NCBI GenBank assembly: GCA_900128395.1
Contig: LT649298.1
Coordinates: 1-42,844, forward strand
DNA length: 42,844 nucleotides
Reading direction: 5' to 3'
DNA from: Stramenopiles sp. TOSAG23-2
Lineage: Eukaryota > Sar
In this document: positions 6,854 to 36,110 of the stretch, one piece after another
Layout of the letters: each line of letters begins with the position of its first letter
How positions within the stretch are numbered: position 1 is the first letter of the stretch
Notes under the pieces: generated by a model
Database searches by the model: none
What the model saw: only the letters and a program-made list of their open reading frames with translations
Told to the model about the DNA's origin: nothing
Position numbers and translations under genes: made by a program

Positions 6854-7353
6854 GTTGATCTTTTTTTGTTTTGTTTTTTTGGAATAGCTTTCGTATATAT
6901 ATATATATATATATATATAGGAGTGGAGAGATACAAACTTTTTGAAATGTGATTGTTATTTTTATTATTATAATTGTGGTTGTTTTAATGTGGTATACAT
7001 TATGTTTTGACAGCATTTTTTTTGGTTATTTTGTGATATATACTAATTTGGTTAATACTGGTATATATAACTGATATAACGTGTTGTTGTATAGTTGTGC
7101 TCACTATATTATAATACTGCAAGCTCTAGCTATTTATTTCTTATTTGTACTGTGCTACTGTCCTCCTCTGCTAGTTTCTTTTTTCTACCTGCTATTCCCT
7201 TGCTCTATGTTAAGGCTATGCTGGAGAATCATTGTGCTGTATGCCTGCTATGTGCTATTTCCATGTTAATTTATTAAAGACTACTTATATCAAGAAATTA
7301 CAACTTTTTGTAACAATCAATAGCTTGCAAAGGTCAAACTTTGCATCTGATGC
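6854..7353. promoter_or_regulatory. 5' region of the ASH gene
   Basis: The gap holds a (TA)n microsatellite at about 6894-6919 close to the ASH-protein ATG, and a TACTGGTA motif at 7056-7063. The rest is T-rich. Short plus-strand frames at 7081-7277 are pyrimidine-rich and not gene-like. Confidence 0.4.
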
Positions 7354-7360
7354 GTCAACT

Positions 7361-7371
7361 TGGCCGAGTGG
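7361..7371 (+). promoter_or_regulatory. Internal Pol III A box of tRNA-Leu
   Basis: TGGCCGAGTGG matches the A-box consensus. The intron begins just after it, so the box is whole but is separated from the B box by about 120 bp. Confidence 0.75.
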
Positions 7372-7372
7372 T

Positions 7373-7449
7373 GTACGTGTAATCTAACAAATATAAAAAT
7401 TGTAGATCGGTTCTCTAACAACAAAACACCTTAATTTAAAAAAATGCAG
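7373..7449 (+). other. 77-nt D-loop intron in tRNA-Leu, GT...AG ends
   Basis: Removing exactly 7373-7449 restores the standard D-loop GAGTGGTCTAA. The boundaries cannot slide by even one base without changing the product. The insert begins GTACGT and ends TGCAG. It contains CTAAC at 7415-7419, about 30 nt before the 3' end, plus another CTAAC at 7384-7388. These look like a spliceosomal 5' site, branch point and 3' site. I see no clear bulge-helix-bulge structure, though ggtgt (7370-7374) could pair with acacc (7426-7430). Which enzyme removes it is unknown. Confidence 0.75.
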
Positions 7450-7490
7450 CTAAGGCGCCAGTTTCAAGCACTGGTATTTTCGAATGCGTG

Positions 7491-7501
7491 GGTTCGAACC
7501 C
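7491..7501 (+). promoter_or_regulatory. Internal Pol III B box of tRNA-Leu
   Basis: GGTTCGAACCC in the T-arm matches the B-box consensus. Confidence 0.8.
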
Positions 7502-7512
7502 CACAGTTGACA

Positions 7513-7521
7513 TTTCTTTTT
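7513..7521 (+). terminator. Pol III oligo-T terminator
   Basis: TTTCTTTTT follows the discriminator base directly, with a run of five T at 7517-7521. This is the expected Pol III stop for the tRNA-Leu transcript. Confidence 0.75.
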
Positions 7522-11727: not shown

Positions 11728-12553
11728 ATTATCAAAAGCACCAATTTATTTATATGAGTATTCAATATGGTTCTCTCTGTCTGTGTGTGTGTTTGTGTGT
11801 ATATGTCGTACGTTACTTCAATTATTCTTTTATTCAATAATGTACATACATATATATATATATATATATATGAATCAGTTGTGATTTCGTGTTTGTTATC
11901 TGATATTATATGTTATCATATCTATTTAACCGATGATTTTTTTTTGAATTGCTGTGCTAATTTAATTTGCATGCAATTATCATTTTTTGTCATCATAATA
12001 ATATCGCCTTGTAATCCCCTGGTATTTTTGAAATCAAAAAATGTTTCCAGAAGGAATACAGTATAGTACCAAAGTAGAATGTAGATCCAGCAACTATTGT
12101 GTAAAATACAGTATGACTTTTAAATCCTCTCTCTACCTTAAACTATCATCAAAAGAATGGAGAGAAATGGTGGAAGAGGAGGGCCAGGTTAAGGTACAGA
12201 GGAGTGAACAAAATAATGGATCACAATTATCATTTCTACTACTATCGGATTCAAAATAAAACCACATACTGGGCATACCAGCATACCAGTACTGTAATGT
12301 AATATTCTTCTTCGCTCTAATATGCCTATACAGGTACTATATTGCCACACGCCATGTGGATTGTTGCGCTACTATTATTCTTCTTCATTATTAATATTCA
12401 ATATTTTTTTTTCTAAATATATATATATTTTAAAATTAATTTATAGACAAAACAACACATGAACAAAAACAATACAATACGATATCATCAAGTATAATAT
12501 TTACAAAATACAAGAGACAAACAAACAAAAATTCTAAACAAAAGAAAATCAAT
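11728..12553. promoter_or_regulatory. Divergent 5' region of TTC12 and VPS20
   Basis: This gap holds a TG-rich run at about 11780-11800, an (AT)n microsatellite at about 11850-11871, and a TACCAGTA motif at 12284-12291 with CAGGTACTATA near 12330. The A-rich stretch of ~80 bp before the VPS20 ATG resembles a 5' UTR. A frame at 12041-12259 has an ATG but no recognisable features and is not called. Confidence 0.4.
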
Positions 12554-13225
12554 ATGGGAATTTTTGCATCAAAAGATAAGAAAGGAGATAATCGAAAGCG
12601 TCCAGTAGATCAATCGAACCAAATGACACAACTTGACAAGTCAAAGTTAGAAGTGAAACGTGGTAAAAATAGGATATCAAAATTTAGTAAAAAGTTAGAA
12701 CAACAGATTGTTAAATTGGATCAAGATGCAAGGAACTATGTGAAGAGCGGTAATAAGAAGAAAGCGCTGTACACTCTCCGTTTGAAAAAATTGAAAATTA
12801 AGTCTCTAGATGATGTTGAACAGAAAATTTTATCACTAGAGAAAATATTATTGGAAATTGAATCGACGGAAATGACGCAAGAGTCTTTAAACGCTGTACA
12901 AAATGGCACAAACGCATTAAATGAAATGCATCGTATTATGTCTGTGGAAGATGTTGAACAAATTATGGCTGATAATGAAGAAGCTCTTGATGAGGCAAAC
13001 GAAATTGCATCATTGCTCTCTGGTGAAAGTTTTGATCTTACTGATGAAGAGGAGCTTGAAGCAGAACTGAATGCTCTTAGTGGAAATGTAAATAATAAAA
13101 ATGATACCAAGGTAGAAATACCTAATATGCCAAATGTACCAACAAGTAAAATTCAACTTAAAAATGATGAGGATGCAAATACGGAAGCAACAACAGAAAA
13201 GAAGAGAGTATTACTAACATCATAA
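12554..13225 (+). CDS. ESCRT-III subunit VPS20/CHMP6
   Basis: This 223-residue SNF7-family protein is assigned to VPS20/CHMP6. It begins Met-Gly-Ile-Phe, so Gly2 is a likely N-myristoylation site, a hallmark of this subunit. The basic helical hairpin follows (about residues 25-110, with ARNYVKSGNKKKALYTLRLK corresponding to the family's ALLLLRKK region). Then come the conserved SLNAVQNGTNALNEMHRIMS and VEQIMADNEEAL segments and an acidic C-terminus. Near the end, EIPNMPNVP resembles a MIM2 motif that binds the VPS4 MIT domain. VPS20 links ESCRT-II to SNF7 and seeds filaments on endosomal membranes; its partner SNF7 is encoded at 34366-35052. It converges on the UFD2 gene. Confidence 0.85.
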   Translation: MGIFASKDKKGDNRKRPVDQSNQMTQLDKSKLEVKRGKNRISKFSKKLEQQIVKLDQDARNYVKSGNKKKALYTLRLKKLKIKSLDDVEQKILSLEKILLEIESTEMTQESLNAVQNGTNALNEMHRIMSVEDVEQIMADNEEALDEANEIASLLSGESFDLTDEEELEAELNALSGNVNNKNDTKVEIPNMPNVPTSKIQLKNDEDANTEATTEKKRVLLTS

Positions 13226-17749: not shown

Positions 17750-20245
17750 ATGGCTACGCGCCATGGTACGTTCAAATTAGCGAATGAATTGTATCAACGG
17801 AAAGGAGATATTGATACTTCGCAAAAAAAATCATCCGTACAAACGACTTTAATTTCAAAAAATAATCATGCAGCTACTAGTGCTTTATTTGGCACTGAAC
17901 ATGAGGGTAGCCACTCAAATTATATGAATGCAAAAGTTGCAAAATTACGCCAAGTACAAGATAAACATGTAGAATTTCTTAATCAAAATAATACTCTTGC
18001 CAAAATTTTTAAAGGGTTGTTTTTTTATATTAATGGAAGACAACATTTACAACTCGTAGCATTAAAGCAACTAATATTACAACGTGGTGGAATGGTAGAG
18101 ACATATCATACAGATATTGTAACACATATGGTTTGTCAAGAATTGTCCGAGTCAAAAGCACAGAAATTAAGAGAGCAATATTTGAAAAAGAATTTCCCCG
18201 TCCAAGTCATACGTAGTGAATGGATCACAGATTCCATTGATGCAGGGAAATGTTTACCAATAGAAATGTACAAACCAACATGTGTTGATGAAACTGGTAC
18301 CGATCAACAGAAAATAACTTCCTTCGTAAAAAAAAGTATCATCAATAATAATAACAATAAGAAACACGATGTAAATAACAATTGTAATAACAATAATAGC
18401 AGTAGTAATAGTAAGAAGAGCAATAATAATAATAGAAATAATAGTGGGAAAAAAAACAATGGCGATGTATGCATATTGCCAACAACAATGCCAAACATAT
18501 CTTCCACTGCGACTACGACTACTACCACCACCACCACTTCAGAAATTCTTAAAACAAATGTCAATAAAAATAAAAAAATGCAAAAAACAAGTGAATCAGA
18601 TTTAAATTTTGTGAATAATTTTTTCGCAAATTCACGTCTTCATCATATTGGTAGATATAGAGCTCATTTAAAACCTCTGATTTTGCAATTGCAAAAAAGT
18701 AAAATATTGTCTCTAAGTGGACAAGGTTTTCATAATAGTTCTGGATTAGAAAAGGATCATCGTAGAATTATTGCCCATGTCGATATGGATTGTTATTTTG
18801 CATCTGTAGCGCTTTTGAAAAGACCAGAGTTGCGAACAAAGCCTGTATGTGTAGCCCATGGAAACGGTAATACTAGTGAGATATCTTCTGCTAATTACGT
18901 TGCTAGGGAATTTGGTTTACGAGCTGGGATGTTTATGCGTAAAGCAAAAGAATTATGTCATGAATTAATCATATTGCCATATGAGTTTGATGAATATGCA
19001 AGAATATCGGAACTTGTTTATTGTACATTATACAAATATGCTGATAAAGTCGAAGTTGTATCTTGCGATGAAGCTTACATTGATATTACCAATTCAGTAT
19101 TTACAGTGTCCTACGGGGGTAGCAACGATAGCAATGGCAGTAATAACATTAGTGTAAATATACAACGTCGGGTCACAGCATATTTACAAGATATACAAAA
19201 AAGTATTTCAGAAACAACAGGATGTACTGCATCGTTCGGAGTTGGTCGCAATAAATTAGTTGCAAAATTGGCAACGTCCTATGCAAAGAAAAAAGACGGG
19301 CCAAATAGCCATTGTGCTCTTATTCACAATGATATAGAAATAGAAAATAAAAATGTCGAAGACTTTATTTCCACTTTATCGATTACTACAATGCCATCAA
19401 TTGGTTGGAAAAGGAGACAAGTAATGGAAGAAAAAGGTATTGAAAAGTGTGGTGATATAAAAAACTGGTCGGAAAAAGATTTGGCAAAATTATTCAATGG
19501 AGATCAAATAGGTAAAAATTTATATGAAGGCATACGAGGTATCGGATCGAATCAACTTGAATCGTTTTTTCAAATGCAAAAATCTGTAAGTGCGGTGATT
19601 AATTATGCCGTACGTTTTATAACAGAGAGAAGATTTTTGGAAGTAATGAAAGATTTATCCGACAATGTAACGTTACGCTTGAAACAATGTGGCGAGAACG
19701 GTGGGATGACGGAAAGTGTCACCGTAAAATTAAAAATTGCAATACAAGGATGGAAGGAACCAGGAAAATTTCTAGGTCATGGTCATTGTCGTGATGTAAC
19801 AAAGAGTCAAAAAGTTCAAACGCCAATATGTACAAAAGAAGATATATTTAAAGTTGTCAATAATATATGCCATGGGATATTAAATACGTATTGTTATACT
19901 AAAGTAAAACGGGCTAAAGATAATGGATTTACAATATCAGATATTCGTGGTATAGGAATACAATTAAATCATTTAATTTCATACGATTCTCAAGAAAATG
20001 CAAAGACTACCACATTATCTCAAATGTGGCAAGGAAATGCAAATAATAATAATAATAATAATAATAATGGTGATGATGATGATGTAATTGATATAACTGA
20101 TAATATTATTACCAAATTGAATAACGATTTGCACAATTCCAACAATGAAATTATTGCCATGAAAATATATAAATCACCTGCTAGACCTTTGAAAAGAAAA
20201 AAAGAGAAAAAGACAACACCAATAAGAAACTTTATGATTATGCAT

Positions 20246-31022: not shown

Positions 31023-31598
31023 TGTGTTGTGTGTGTGTGGTTTAACTTTAATATTTTGTTTGGAGTTGTATATGTGATCCTAAAGGATGAAGAATGTATA
31101 GATATTGTATATATCTCTTTGTACCTTTATATACATAGAAAAGATATTTTTATTTACACATAAGACTTTTCTGGTTTTTGTCTAACCAGATGTGCAGCTG
31201 TAAAGAATTAATCGCCTCAAATATATATATCTTTTACACTTTTTCCGATTTTTGATATCATCTTAGAAGAAATAATATTTAATATTGGTATAGGACTGGA
31301 ATAATATTAATAGGAGAAGGCCAGGAAGGACACTAGCGAGCTACTGTACCTACTGTACCACCTGGTAATACTATGGTACTATAAATAAATCAGTTATACA
31401 CATTCTTCTTCAACTACTTTACCAGGTATTATTTTTTTATATGTTAATGTGTACTATTATATTATAATACATTAATTCAATTATTCAATTAATAACATCC
31501 ATAAATAAAAACCATACTAGACGACTATATCCAAACATATAAATACTGACACCCCACAAAACAAAACAAAACAATATCCATACAAGAATATAAAAACA
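31023..31598. promoter_or_regulatory. Divergent 5' region of dehalogenase and CNB-fold gene
   Basis: This gap contains a TG run beside the dehalogenase ATG, TACCACCTGGTA (31356-31367) followed by GGTACTATA (near 31375), and TTTACCAGGTATT near 31427. The last ~40 bases before the ATG at 31599 are A/C-rich with an ACAAAACAAAACAA run. No gene is visible. Confidence 0.42.
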
Positions 31599-32120
31599 AT
31601 GAAACAAAATACTTCCCCAAAGGAACAAAAAATATCCAAGCAAAAACCTATAATAATAGATGAAATAAACAACCATGATGGAAATGAAAGTGATAGTGAT
31701 ATTTCAGAACATTATATGGATGTACGTCAATCCATGTCAGTTGATGAAGTACTTGATGAAATGCCCCCAAAAATATTTGACATAAAACATGTTATGAAAA
31801 AAAAAAGGAACCAACGTACCATAGAAGAAAACAATGCCATTAAAGATTTTGTTGTATCTGTTAAATTTTTTCGACAAGCTATTCATACTGGACAAGTATC
31901 AATAGATGCAATGGATGATATCTGTGCTAACATTCGAATGAAAGTCTATGAAAAAAACTCAATTGTATTTCGTCAAGGAGATCCAGGAGATGCATTTTAT
32001 ATAGTCGTTGAAGGTTTAACACATGTATTGATAAATCCCGAGGGTGGTTTTAGTAAAACTGATGATGAAAAATTTGCAGAGGAAGTCATGAAAGATTTTG
32101 AAGAGGAGTTGTTGTCGTAG
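31599..32120 (+). CDS. Protein with half a cyclic-nucleotide-binding domain
   Basis: The 173-residue protein starts acidic and disordered. From about residue 80 it carries the beginning of a cNMP-binding fold: a helix with VKFFRQAI, the IDAMDDICANIRMKVYEKN turn, then VFRQGDPGDAFYIVVEG (about 126-142), the signature of the first beta-roll strands. The frame ends at a TAG about 30 residues after this block, after an acidic helix (EKFAEEVMKDFEEEL). The phosphate-binding cassette (GE..L....RAA) that holds the cyclic nucleotide is absent, and I find no continuation in any frame downstream. Either this is a genuine degenerate family member that cannot bind ligand, or a truncated gene. It lies upstream of TFIIH p44 on the same strand with a 648-bp spacer. 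Confidence 0.68.
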   Translation: MKQNTSPKEQKISKQKPIIIDEINNHDGNESDSDISEHYMDVRQSMSVDEVLDEMPPKIFDIKHVMKKKRNQRTIEENNAIKDFVVSVKFFRQAIHTGQVSIDAMDDICANIRMKVYEKNSIVFRQGDPGDAFYIVVEGLTHVLINPEGGFSKTDDEKFAEEVMKDFEEELLS

Positions 32121-34365: not shown

Positions 34366-35052
34366 TTACTGCATTTCTGCCATCAAATTATTAAATGCTG
34401 CTTCCTCATCTTCATCAAGATTATTGTCTTGAACTTTTGGTTTCTCGTTAGGTACATTTGGCATATTAATTTGATCGACGACATTATTCTCTTCTACTAC
34501 ACCAGGCTTCATCATTTCCTCTTCCATTAATTCTTTCTCCATGTCATCTAATTCACCTAATAACTCATCATCATCCACCGTATCTCCCATTTGTTGTCCT
34601 AGCGCATTAGAAATCTCTTCTCCCATATCCATATTCTCTTGAAGATCATCCATTAATTCTGTGACATTATCGACATCCATACTAGCGGTAATTGATTGCA
34701 ATCCAGCTTTCGATTCTTGCATGGCGCCAACTACGACAGCATTAGTAGCTGCATTTTCCAATGTGAATTTCTGTTGTTCCAAAGTAGCTAATATATTGTT
34801 GATTTTATCAACTTCAGCTTGATACATTTTTTTACGTTTTAAACATAAAATTGCACCACGTTTATCACCCTTTGCACTTTTAGCTTTTGCTAATTTTAAT
34901 TGTTGCATAATTTTCGTATTTAAATGTGCTTCACGCTTTTCATTTGATTTAATTGTATCATCAATTACTTTCATGGATTCTGCCATACTTTTTGGCTTTT
35001 CTGCTTTGGTTACTTTCTTTGGTGCACGACCAAATATATTAAAAGACGCCAT
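34366..35052 (-). CDS. ESCRT-III subunit SNF7/CHMP4 (VPS32)
   Basis: This 228-residue SNF7-family protein matches CHMP4/SNF7, the main filament-forming ESCRT-III subunit, which drives membrane scission in multivesicular bodies, cytokinesis and membrane repair. Evidence is the basic N-terminal helix, the helical hairpin with SAKGDKRGAILCLKRKKMYQAEVDKI (about residues 57-82; the family's ALLALKRKK region), LATLEQQKFTLENA, then SMDVDNVTELMDDLQENMD and the acidic ELLGELDDMEKELMEE helix. Near the end INMPNVPNEKP resembles a VPS4-binding MIM2, and EAAFNNLMAEM could form the amphipathic C-terminal helix that binds Bro1/ALIX proteins. Its nucleator VPS20 is encoded at 12554-13225. Converges on p44. 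Confidence 0.87.
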   Translation of the reverse strand: MASFNIFGRAPKKVTKAEKPKSMAESMKVIDDTIKSNEKREAHLNTKIMQQLKLAKAKSAKGDKRGAILCLKRKKMYQAEVDKINNILATLEQQKFTLENAATNAVVVGAMQESKAGLQSITASMDVDNVTELMDDLQENMDMGEEISNALGQQMGDTVDDDELLGELDDMEKELMEEEMMKPGVVEENNVVDQINMPNVPNEKPKVQDNNLDEDEEAAFNNLMAEMQ

Positions 35053-36110
35053 TTTTTATTTTATTTTTTTTTTTATATACTACAAATACTAAATTTATTA
35101 TTTTACTGTGCTTATATACCTGATATTTAAATATATATATATATATGAATATACGTAACAAGGTAATTGTATACTGTTTTTATTTCTTACTTTAACAAAT
35201 AATAACGATAATATCAAACTTCTTTTTCTCTATAAACGTTTGACTGATTTGTATATTTCTATTTACTTTGCACCATTGTGTGTTTTTAGTTCATGATTTT
35301 ATTCACACATAAAATATATAAGAAAATATATTGAAGATGAATGTTGTAGTGTGTTGGTCTAGTTGTCGAGTTTTGTCGATTGATAGGTGGTTTTGACAAC
35401 TAACCACTTATTCAACTAGTATAAAAAATAATAGAATATAGTACTTCGTCGTATCCTTAAATATTATTTCATTTTTATAGGTGTCTATACTAATTACAAT
35501 AAGAACAAAATAATCATTTGTAGACTTGCAAGACTAAGATCCTATTTAAAAGTGGAAAAACACTAAAAAATATGAAAAAAATAACACTATTCAAATGGAT
35601 GTGTTGGCGTTCTGGACCAGAGCATTGTTCGACTCACCAAATGCACATTTTAAAGCAAAACGATTATTTCAATTATTATAAGCGCAAGTTTTAATAATCG
35701 CAGTTTGTATATCTCTACATGTAGTAGAAATCCAATTAGAAGATATTATATATATCATATAATTTATATATATAATATATATAATGTAGGAAACAGATCT
35801 ACAACTTTATACATTAAGAATGAAAAAGAAGTGGTTTGTCTAAACGAGAAGAATTGTCAATCTAATTCATCAAATTCGGACGAGGATTTATCTATAGAAT
35901 ATTAAAGTATACTAAATAAATACATATTACTAGTGACCCTGTAAAAAAAACTTTATTATTAAATTATATGTAAGAGAAAATTTTTATATTTAAATGTTAT
36001 TGTCTATGAATAAGGACGTTAACTAAATTAATAAAAATACAAAGAGTAACTAATTAAATTTAAATACAGAGAGTACGTCGTATTTTATAAATATTACGTT
36101 CGTATATTTA
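35053..36110. other. Long spacer with dyads and gene-like fragments
   Basis: Just upstream of SNF7 lies an (AT)n run (35131-35146). At about 35361-35405 TAGTTGTC pairs with GACAACTA, and CTAGTTG also pairs with CAACTAG. A short frame at 35595-35666 reads like protein (ends AHFKAKRLFQLL). Another open stretch to 35905 ends in an acidic Ser-rich tail but has no ATG. These could be remnants or exons of an unrecognised gene. TACG-T-CGTA (36074-36082) and TACG-TT-CGTA (36095-36104) lie just beyond the receptor stop. Confidence 0.4.
36074..36104. terminator. Two TACG/CGTA dyads at the receptor gene 3' flank
   Basis: TACG-T-CGTA at 36074-36082 and TACG-TT-CGTA at 36095-36104 lie within 40 bp of the stop of the minus-strand receptor gene. 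Confidence 0.3.

Follow-up and report, generated by a model that had tools for sequence, protein, structure and literature searches.

An Interrupted tRNA-Leu(CAA) Gene

The tRNA-Leu(CAA) gene at positions 7354-7512 of the window, as the whole 42,844-nt stretch of DNA that was analyzed is called here (contig 65 of a 17.45-Mb, 793-contig assembly), is very probably a working gene split by a spliceosomal intron, and belongs to a set of at least six tRNA genes of this kind in the genome. This reading rests on sequence comparisons. The parts of the gene are listed below.

7354..7372 (+): exon 1, acceptor 5' strand and D-arm up to the D-loop (sequence)
7361..7371 (+): A-box region by its consensus, intact (sequence)
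7373..7449 (+): 77-nt GT-AG intron in the D-loop (sequence, splice scan, boundary-slide test)
7373..7378 (+): 5' splice site GTACGT (sequence)
7415..7419 (+): branch-point motif CTAAC (sequence)
7448..7449 (+): 3' splice site AG (sequence)
7450..7512 (+): exon 2, remaining D-arm, anticodon arm, long variable arm, T-arm, acceptor 3' strand and discriminator A
7465..7467 (+): anticodon CAA, with the 37/38 site uninterrupted (sequence)
7491..7501 (+): B box/T-loop GGTTCGAACCC, intact (T-arm pattern)

A sequence-only reading of this DNA had proposed a tRNA-Leu(CAA) gene with an insert in its D-loop, and when the exon and intron coordinates were re-derived they held exactly. It had also stated that the two halves form a class II tRNA. 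Splicing in silico produced an 82-nt molecule with 7/7 acceptor pairs and an intact anticodon loop. The insert boundaries, described as unambiguous, could not slide even one base, and the GTACGT start, the CTAAC at 7415-7419 and the TGCAG end that had been pointed out were all present, with 31 nt separating the branch A from the intron end. The Leu-TAA paralogue on contig 7 has an uninterrupted D-arm that is identical to that of Leu-CAA over the same part. A second, intact Leu-CAA gene, which had been suggested as a target for searching, was not found in the assembly, which may be incomplete, among the 63 of 786 tRNA candidates that were scored.

The tRNA in the window was detected neither by plain ARAGORN nor by the Rfam scan at gathering threshold. 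When introns were allowed, ARAGORN read the same locus as a tRNA-Val(AAC) whose anticodon loop holds a 70-nt intron. This parse was rejected because its D-stem is broken, its anticodon stem contains a T.T and its variable region is too large. The predicted fold of the Leu-CAA precursor was no more stable than that of shuffled sequences (z -0.52), a result that counts against the preferred explanation.

Six Split tRNA Genes

The search of the genome for other split tRNAs, also recommended at the outset, located five further interrupted tRNA genes, making six in the assembly with 10 introns in all. They are given by contig (C) and position, and the intron sites by the exon nucleotide that they follow.

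C7:1588-1805 (-): Leu-TAA, 2 introns, after exon nt 6 and 39
C27:19960-20100 (-): Thr-CGT, 1 intron, after nt 55, inside the T-loop and B box
C268:6689-6908 (+): Arg-TCT, 2 introns, after nt 8 and 49
C314:18187-18327 (+): Arg-ACG, 1 intron, after nt 42
C197:8841-9120 (-): elongator Met-CAT, 3 introns, after nt 11, 31 and 47

The nine introns of like kind in these five genes support the earlier proposal that the Leu-CAA insert is an intron of the mRNA type, which would imply maturation by the spliceosome or transcription by two polymerases. All ten introns occupy different positions; none lies at 37/38 and one lies at 38/39. Splicing in silico gave complete canonical cloverleaves in ARAGORN for six of six genes, with 7, 6, 7, 7, 7 and 7 of 7 acceptor pairs. 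The exons that flank the introns are 6-63 nt long. The only acceptor mismatch, C4-T69, is in Leu-TAA, whose first exon is just 6 nt; both features count against the preferred explanation.

Four of the six split genes surfaced in an Rfam tRNA scan of the genome, which requires no splice motif and gave 16 matches; the tRNA counts are lower bounds because only 63 of 786 Rfam candidates were scored. The other two came from a T-arm pattern (118 matches versus 120 in the control; the analysis covered the 100 listed and 2 of the other 18), and the lead to the Met-CAT gene came from the model R1 run on candidate loci. Uninterrupted complete genes were found for Thr-AGT, Phe, Ile, Arg-TCG, Val, Arg-CCT, Ser-GCT, Ala, Pro and two SeC, so that at least 6 of the 17 complete tRNA genes seen are split. 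The two tRNA-SeC(TCA) genes are in tandem, 179 nt apart and without introns (C227:11215-11476). A tRNA-Cys fragment (C426:4624-4728) has the upstream element described below, but a T-rich stretch truncates its T-arm; what comes next is similar, by eye, to the region downstream of tRNA-Arg(ACG).

Additional searches yielded no further split gene among the sequences that were read. Of two D-arm patterns, one matched 15 times (control 16) and the other once (control 3). Three other patterns returned 15 matches (control 15) with no new gene, 5 matches (control 2) that comprised three known tRNAs and two sequences without a tRNA, and 13 matches (control 111), of which the 3 examined were not tRNAs. 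In viral contigs, a scan for a D-loop plus splice site marked 30 stretches; one lay in a tRNA-like stretch without such an intron, and the others had no split tRNA in the 115 nt following each. A GT-AG scan over the same 30 stretches gave 5 matches in three loci.

At the Arg-ACG locus (C314:17600-18600), a tandem duplication covers exon 1 together with parts of the leader and of the intron. The copies of exon 1 are at C314:18065 and 18187, and the upstream element, at 18012, stands before the first copy only. Use of either 5' splice site generated the same mature tRNA in silico, a behavior that a spliceosome would permit. The codons read by the split tRNAs are regularly used, with frequencies per 1000 among 11029 window codons of 24.8 for ATG, 24.8 for TTG, 35.9 for TTA, 12.0 for AGA, 10.0 for CGT and 10.2 for ACG.

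It is highly improbable that the split genes are dead copies and that intact isoacceptor genes lie in unassembled DNA. The possible incompleteness of the assembly, the many isotypes not found in it by partial searches, and the existence of a truncated tRNA-Cys would be compatible with that idea. Nonetheless, the six cloverleaves are complete and keep their conserved bases with the single mismatch in Leu-TAA, all six genes have the upstream element (weak in Met-CAT) and a T-run, and ten inserts with perfect splice signals would hardly be expected in dead copies.

Splice Signals of the tRNA Introns

All ten tRNA introns have the form GTAMGT...YTAAC...AG and are 59-80 nt long. The 5' splice site is GTAAGT in seven and GTACGT in three, and YTAAC occurs in 10/10, with its A located 13-34 nt from the intron end. 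At seven of the ten introns the boundaries cannot slide and are fixed by the tRNA alone. On base composition alone, the chance of AMGT following GT ten times is about 5e-21, and that of GT..AG at the seven non-sliding boundaries is about 3e-18. For comparison, YTAAC was found at a matching distance upstream of 31 of 532 intergenic AGs in the window.

The specificity of these signals was evaluated in scans where control dinucleotide pairs replaced GT-AG. The strict scan covered 274 kb, removed one to three candidate introns and demanded an ARAGORN tRNA across every junction. GT-AG gave 36 matches, all in the six split genes (several genes counted twice), while the four control pairs gave 0, 0, 6 (all Arg-TCT, counted twice) and 0. 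A first looser scan produced 6 matches, with controls of 0, 1 and 3; the control matches were all at intact tRNA genes. A second one produced 51, with controls of 28, 36 and 14; these 78 control matches comprised 52 at intact tRNA genes, 24 at Arg-ACG and 2 at Leu-CAA. Those at intact genes appear because rejoining leaves the tRNA whole, and those at Arg-ACG and Leu-CAA are near-boundary alternatives.

Intron 1 of Met-CAT and the Leu-CAA intron were the most similar of the 45 intron pairs, with a score equalled in 0 of 100 shuffles, a hint that introns may have been copied. None of the ten introns has a run of five or more T (P about 0.011 versus intergenic DNA). However, this absence is weak evidence for RNA polymerase III because the A-rich composition alone suffices to explain it (shuffle P 0.74).

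Endonuclease and Self-Splicing Introns

Group I and group II introns usually are well over 200 nt and include a catalytic core. Self-splicing of either kind was rejected, as the tRNA introns are 59-80 nt and there was no Rfam match in the window. Introns of the bulge-helix-bulge type, the substrate of the tRNA endonuclease, were rejected as well; no junction fits and none is at 37/38. The test sought a 4-bp helix with 3-nt bulges and recognized a synthetic control. It identified the motif at 0/10 junctions with strict or relaxed bulges, and the 4-bp central helix was lacking at all of them. The Leu-CAA junction, for which this search had been proposed, was among the ten. In a search of 17.45 Mb that had no eukaryotic positive control, 0 candidates were found for PF01974, the domain in which the tRNA endonuclease has its catalytic site; this absence is no more than suggestive, as the assembly may be incomplete.

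These results bear on the possibility that the introns are ectopic tRNA introns, cut and rejoined by the tRNA splicing endonuclease and a ligase as in Cyanidioschyzon and archaea, and that their GT-AG appearance is incidental. Ectopic and multiple tRNA introns are indeed known from those organisms, and the portion of PMC3978253 available describes many in the Guillardia nucleomorph, at ectopic sites, that have no defined bulge-helix-bulge. We nevertheless consider this mechanism very unlikely here, given the missing central helix at every junction, the GTAMGT and YTAAC found in 10/10 introns and the lack of a PF01974 domain in an assembly that may be incomplete.

Comparison with Protein-Gene Introns

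A strict scan of protein genes identified a small set of five candidate introns of 74-101 nt with GTAMGT, CTAAC and AG. In two of the five a domain match spans the junction: the intron in the acetyl-CoA synthetase gene lies within the PF00501 (AMP-binding) match and that in the palmitoyl-protein thioesterase gene within the PF02089 match, both with the same signals as the tRNA introns. The intron in a sulfatase gene is outside the main domain match. These two domain-spanning introns carry the weight of the comparison, because an AC-end control of the strict scan gave 6 matches versus the 5 candidate introns, and looser searches without the 5' splice site constraint did no better than their controls (23 versus 14 to 33 in one of them). 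GTAMGT, CTAAC and AG are common to the tRNA introns and the ordinary U2-type protein-gene introns of the host. Their compositions differ, with 51% A and 23% T in the tRNA introns versus 32% A and 36% T in the five protein-gene introns. A U6 snRNA gene is present in the assembly (82.5 bits).

The agreement with host mRNA introns also speaks against the notion that the inserts are internal eliminated sequences removed from the DNA, or assembly artefacts. No support for it was seen, the assembly being one of 793 contigs, and it is barely credible for inserts that lie on six contigs, at ten positions, with one consensus.

The host is probably an uncultured, heterotrophic stramenopile, perhaps a MAST. 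For the Ufd2-like protein of the window, oomycetes were the best named matches, at 32-34% over most of the query, and other relatives reached 52-72% identity, both among the 29 proteins listed. The introns of MAST-4 are few but long (mean 260-332 bp) according to the part of PMC5269757 that was available; the host agrees with that description in number and not in length. The available part of PMC8163842, on 15 MAST genomes, held nothing on tRNAs. The window also has two Snf7 (ESCRT-III) genes, at 12440-13225 and 34366-35055, and a cyclic-nucleotide-binding domain at 31521-32120 that matches only profile positions 2-37 of 89; the gene may continue beyond an intron.

Upstream Element and Transcription

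When the flanks of the tRNA genes were lined up and read, a 34-nt element was recognized that consists of TATATATA followed by an AT-rich dyad and stands 53-97 nt upstream of split and intact tRNA genes and of tRNA-SeC. A k-mer enrichment analysis upstream of tRNA genes showed nothing above shuffles. Around the Leu-CAA gene the features are the following.

7282..7315 (+): putative upstream promoter element, TATA-like part and AT-rich dyad (matrix match, 30.3 bits)
7316..7353 (+): inferred 5' leader of pre-tRNA-Leu(CAA), for removal by RNase P (from the element and the tRNA start)
7517..7521 (+): T-run, probable Pol III terminator (sequence)

The matrix was built from 15 rows, which did not include Pro-AGG (weak, 19 of 34 positions), the Cys fragment or the second SeC copy. 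The element at 7282-7315 scored 30.3 bits (20.5 when left out of the training set) and the next best site in the window 15.6, so in a window with more than a dozen protein genes the best match belongs to the tRNA gene. In 340 kb of partly redundant sequence the 14 best scores were tRNA genes, although 15 of these genes had trained the matrix. The match is weak at Met-CAT, where the leave-one-out score was 7.3 bits and the full-matrix score, 19.5, fell under two non-tRNA sites at 21.2. At Arg-ACG the element precedes the first copy of exon 1 and is 175 nt from the copy adjoining the intron used. These weak or displaced matches count against the preferred explanation. Two element matches on contig 62 (C62:34213-34244 and C62:34692-34723, each with 2 mismatches to the pattern) are 479 nt apart with no tRNA listed; they could perhaps mark additional genes for Pol III or tRNAs with several introns. 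Downstream of all six split genes, a run of at least five T begins within 25 nt, and such a run is present within 45 nt downstream of 8 of the 10 intact genes looked at.

The element is likely an external Pol III promoter for the tRNA genes. Judged by the box consensus, an intron splits the B box in Thr-CGT and the A box in Met-CAT, and an ordinary internal Pol III promoter could hardly serve those two genes. An external promoter would explain how the boxes can be broken. The same observation could be taken to favor a different view, in which the introns are spliceosomal but RNA polymerase II, alone or together with RNA polymerase III, makes the precursors from the TATA promoter, with the T-runs being incidental. 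In other organisms the spliceosome is coupled to RNA polymerase II, which also speaks for this version. We regard it as unlikely, as intact tRNA genes and tRNA-SeC also have the element, the window's best match to it belongs to a tRNA gene, a T-run follows six of six split genes, and the combination of an upstream TATA-like sequence and a downstream T-stretch is known for Pol III tRNA genes of Cyanidioschyzon (PMC3978253, as far as the part available goes).

Discussion

tRNA splicing has been described as a route that uses protein enzymes and is separate from the spliceosome. The ten introns reported here resemble the canonical eukaryotic ones in that they are intervening sequences in nuclear tRNA genes. 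They differ in that none is at 37/38 and no endonuclease substrate structure is present. No report of spliceosomal introns in nuclear tRNA genes was found in the open-licence papers searched.

Some tRNA introns of the Guillardia theta nucleomorph are only a few nucleotides long. The nearest precedent is the fission yeast U6 snRNA gene, which has an mRNA-type GT-AG intron thought to derive from reverse splicing (PMC10484740, available in part). In both cases a GT-AG intron interrupts the gene for a short structured RNA, made by Pol III in the yeast and probably so here. Unlike U6, which is part of the spliceosome itself, the genes concerned here are six tRNA genes with up to three introns each. 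The other close comparison is Cyanidioschyzon merolae, for which the accessible part of PMC3978253 describes permuted tRNA genes as well as tRNA introns that are ectopic or multiple. In both organisms the breaks in tRNA genes are scattered, with the D-loop and T-loop among the sites, and the genes have an upstream TATA-like element and a downstream T-stretch; the internal boxes of the alga are thought to be dispensable. However, its junctions are described as bulge-helix-bulge motifs for the tRNA endonuclease, while the ten junctions found here are not and have spliceosomal signals instead. The Guillardia theta introns, compared by description only, are similar in their odd positions and often lack a defined bulge-helix-bulge in the same partly available source. 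For diplonemids the converse idea, tRNA-type machinery acting on odd introns, is raised in the part of PMC12621601 available.

In the pathway that we propose, the upstream TATA-type promoter common to the tRNA genes would drive transcription, most likely by RNA polymerase III and ending in the T-run. The spliceosome would then excise one to three short GT-AG introns per precursor and ligate the exons, some of which have no more than 6-20 nt, after which the remaining tRNA processing would give tRNAs that are presumably used. Introns could sit anywhere, even in the A or B box, because the promoter is outside the gene. Recognition of exons of 6-20 nt is demanding and counts against this explanation.

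Taken together, the sequences suggest that the machinery for mRNA splicing also matures six tRNAs; the open-licence literature searched held no report of such a route. More tentatively, and with somewhat less than even confidence, we propose that in this lineage the spliceosome took over tRNA splicing: the endonuclease would have been lost and the promoter would be external, leaving tRNA genes free to gain introns anywhere and several per gene. The tRNA finders used here missed or misread the split genes, which would explain missing tRNAs in such genomes. If the reading is correct, the spliceosome is able to mature tRNAs on what appears to be a Pol III transcript, even when an exon has no more than 6 nt and the usual coupling to RNA polymerase II is missing, and the freedom to gain introns would be linked to the lost dependence on internal promoters. 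As the elongator Met gene is split, and so are the genes of the tRNAs that read the commonest Leu and Arg codons, translation in this organism would be directly dependent on the spliceosome.
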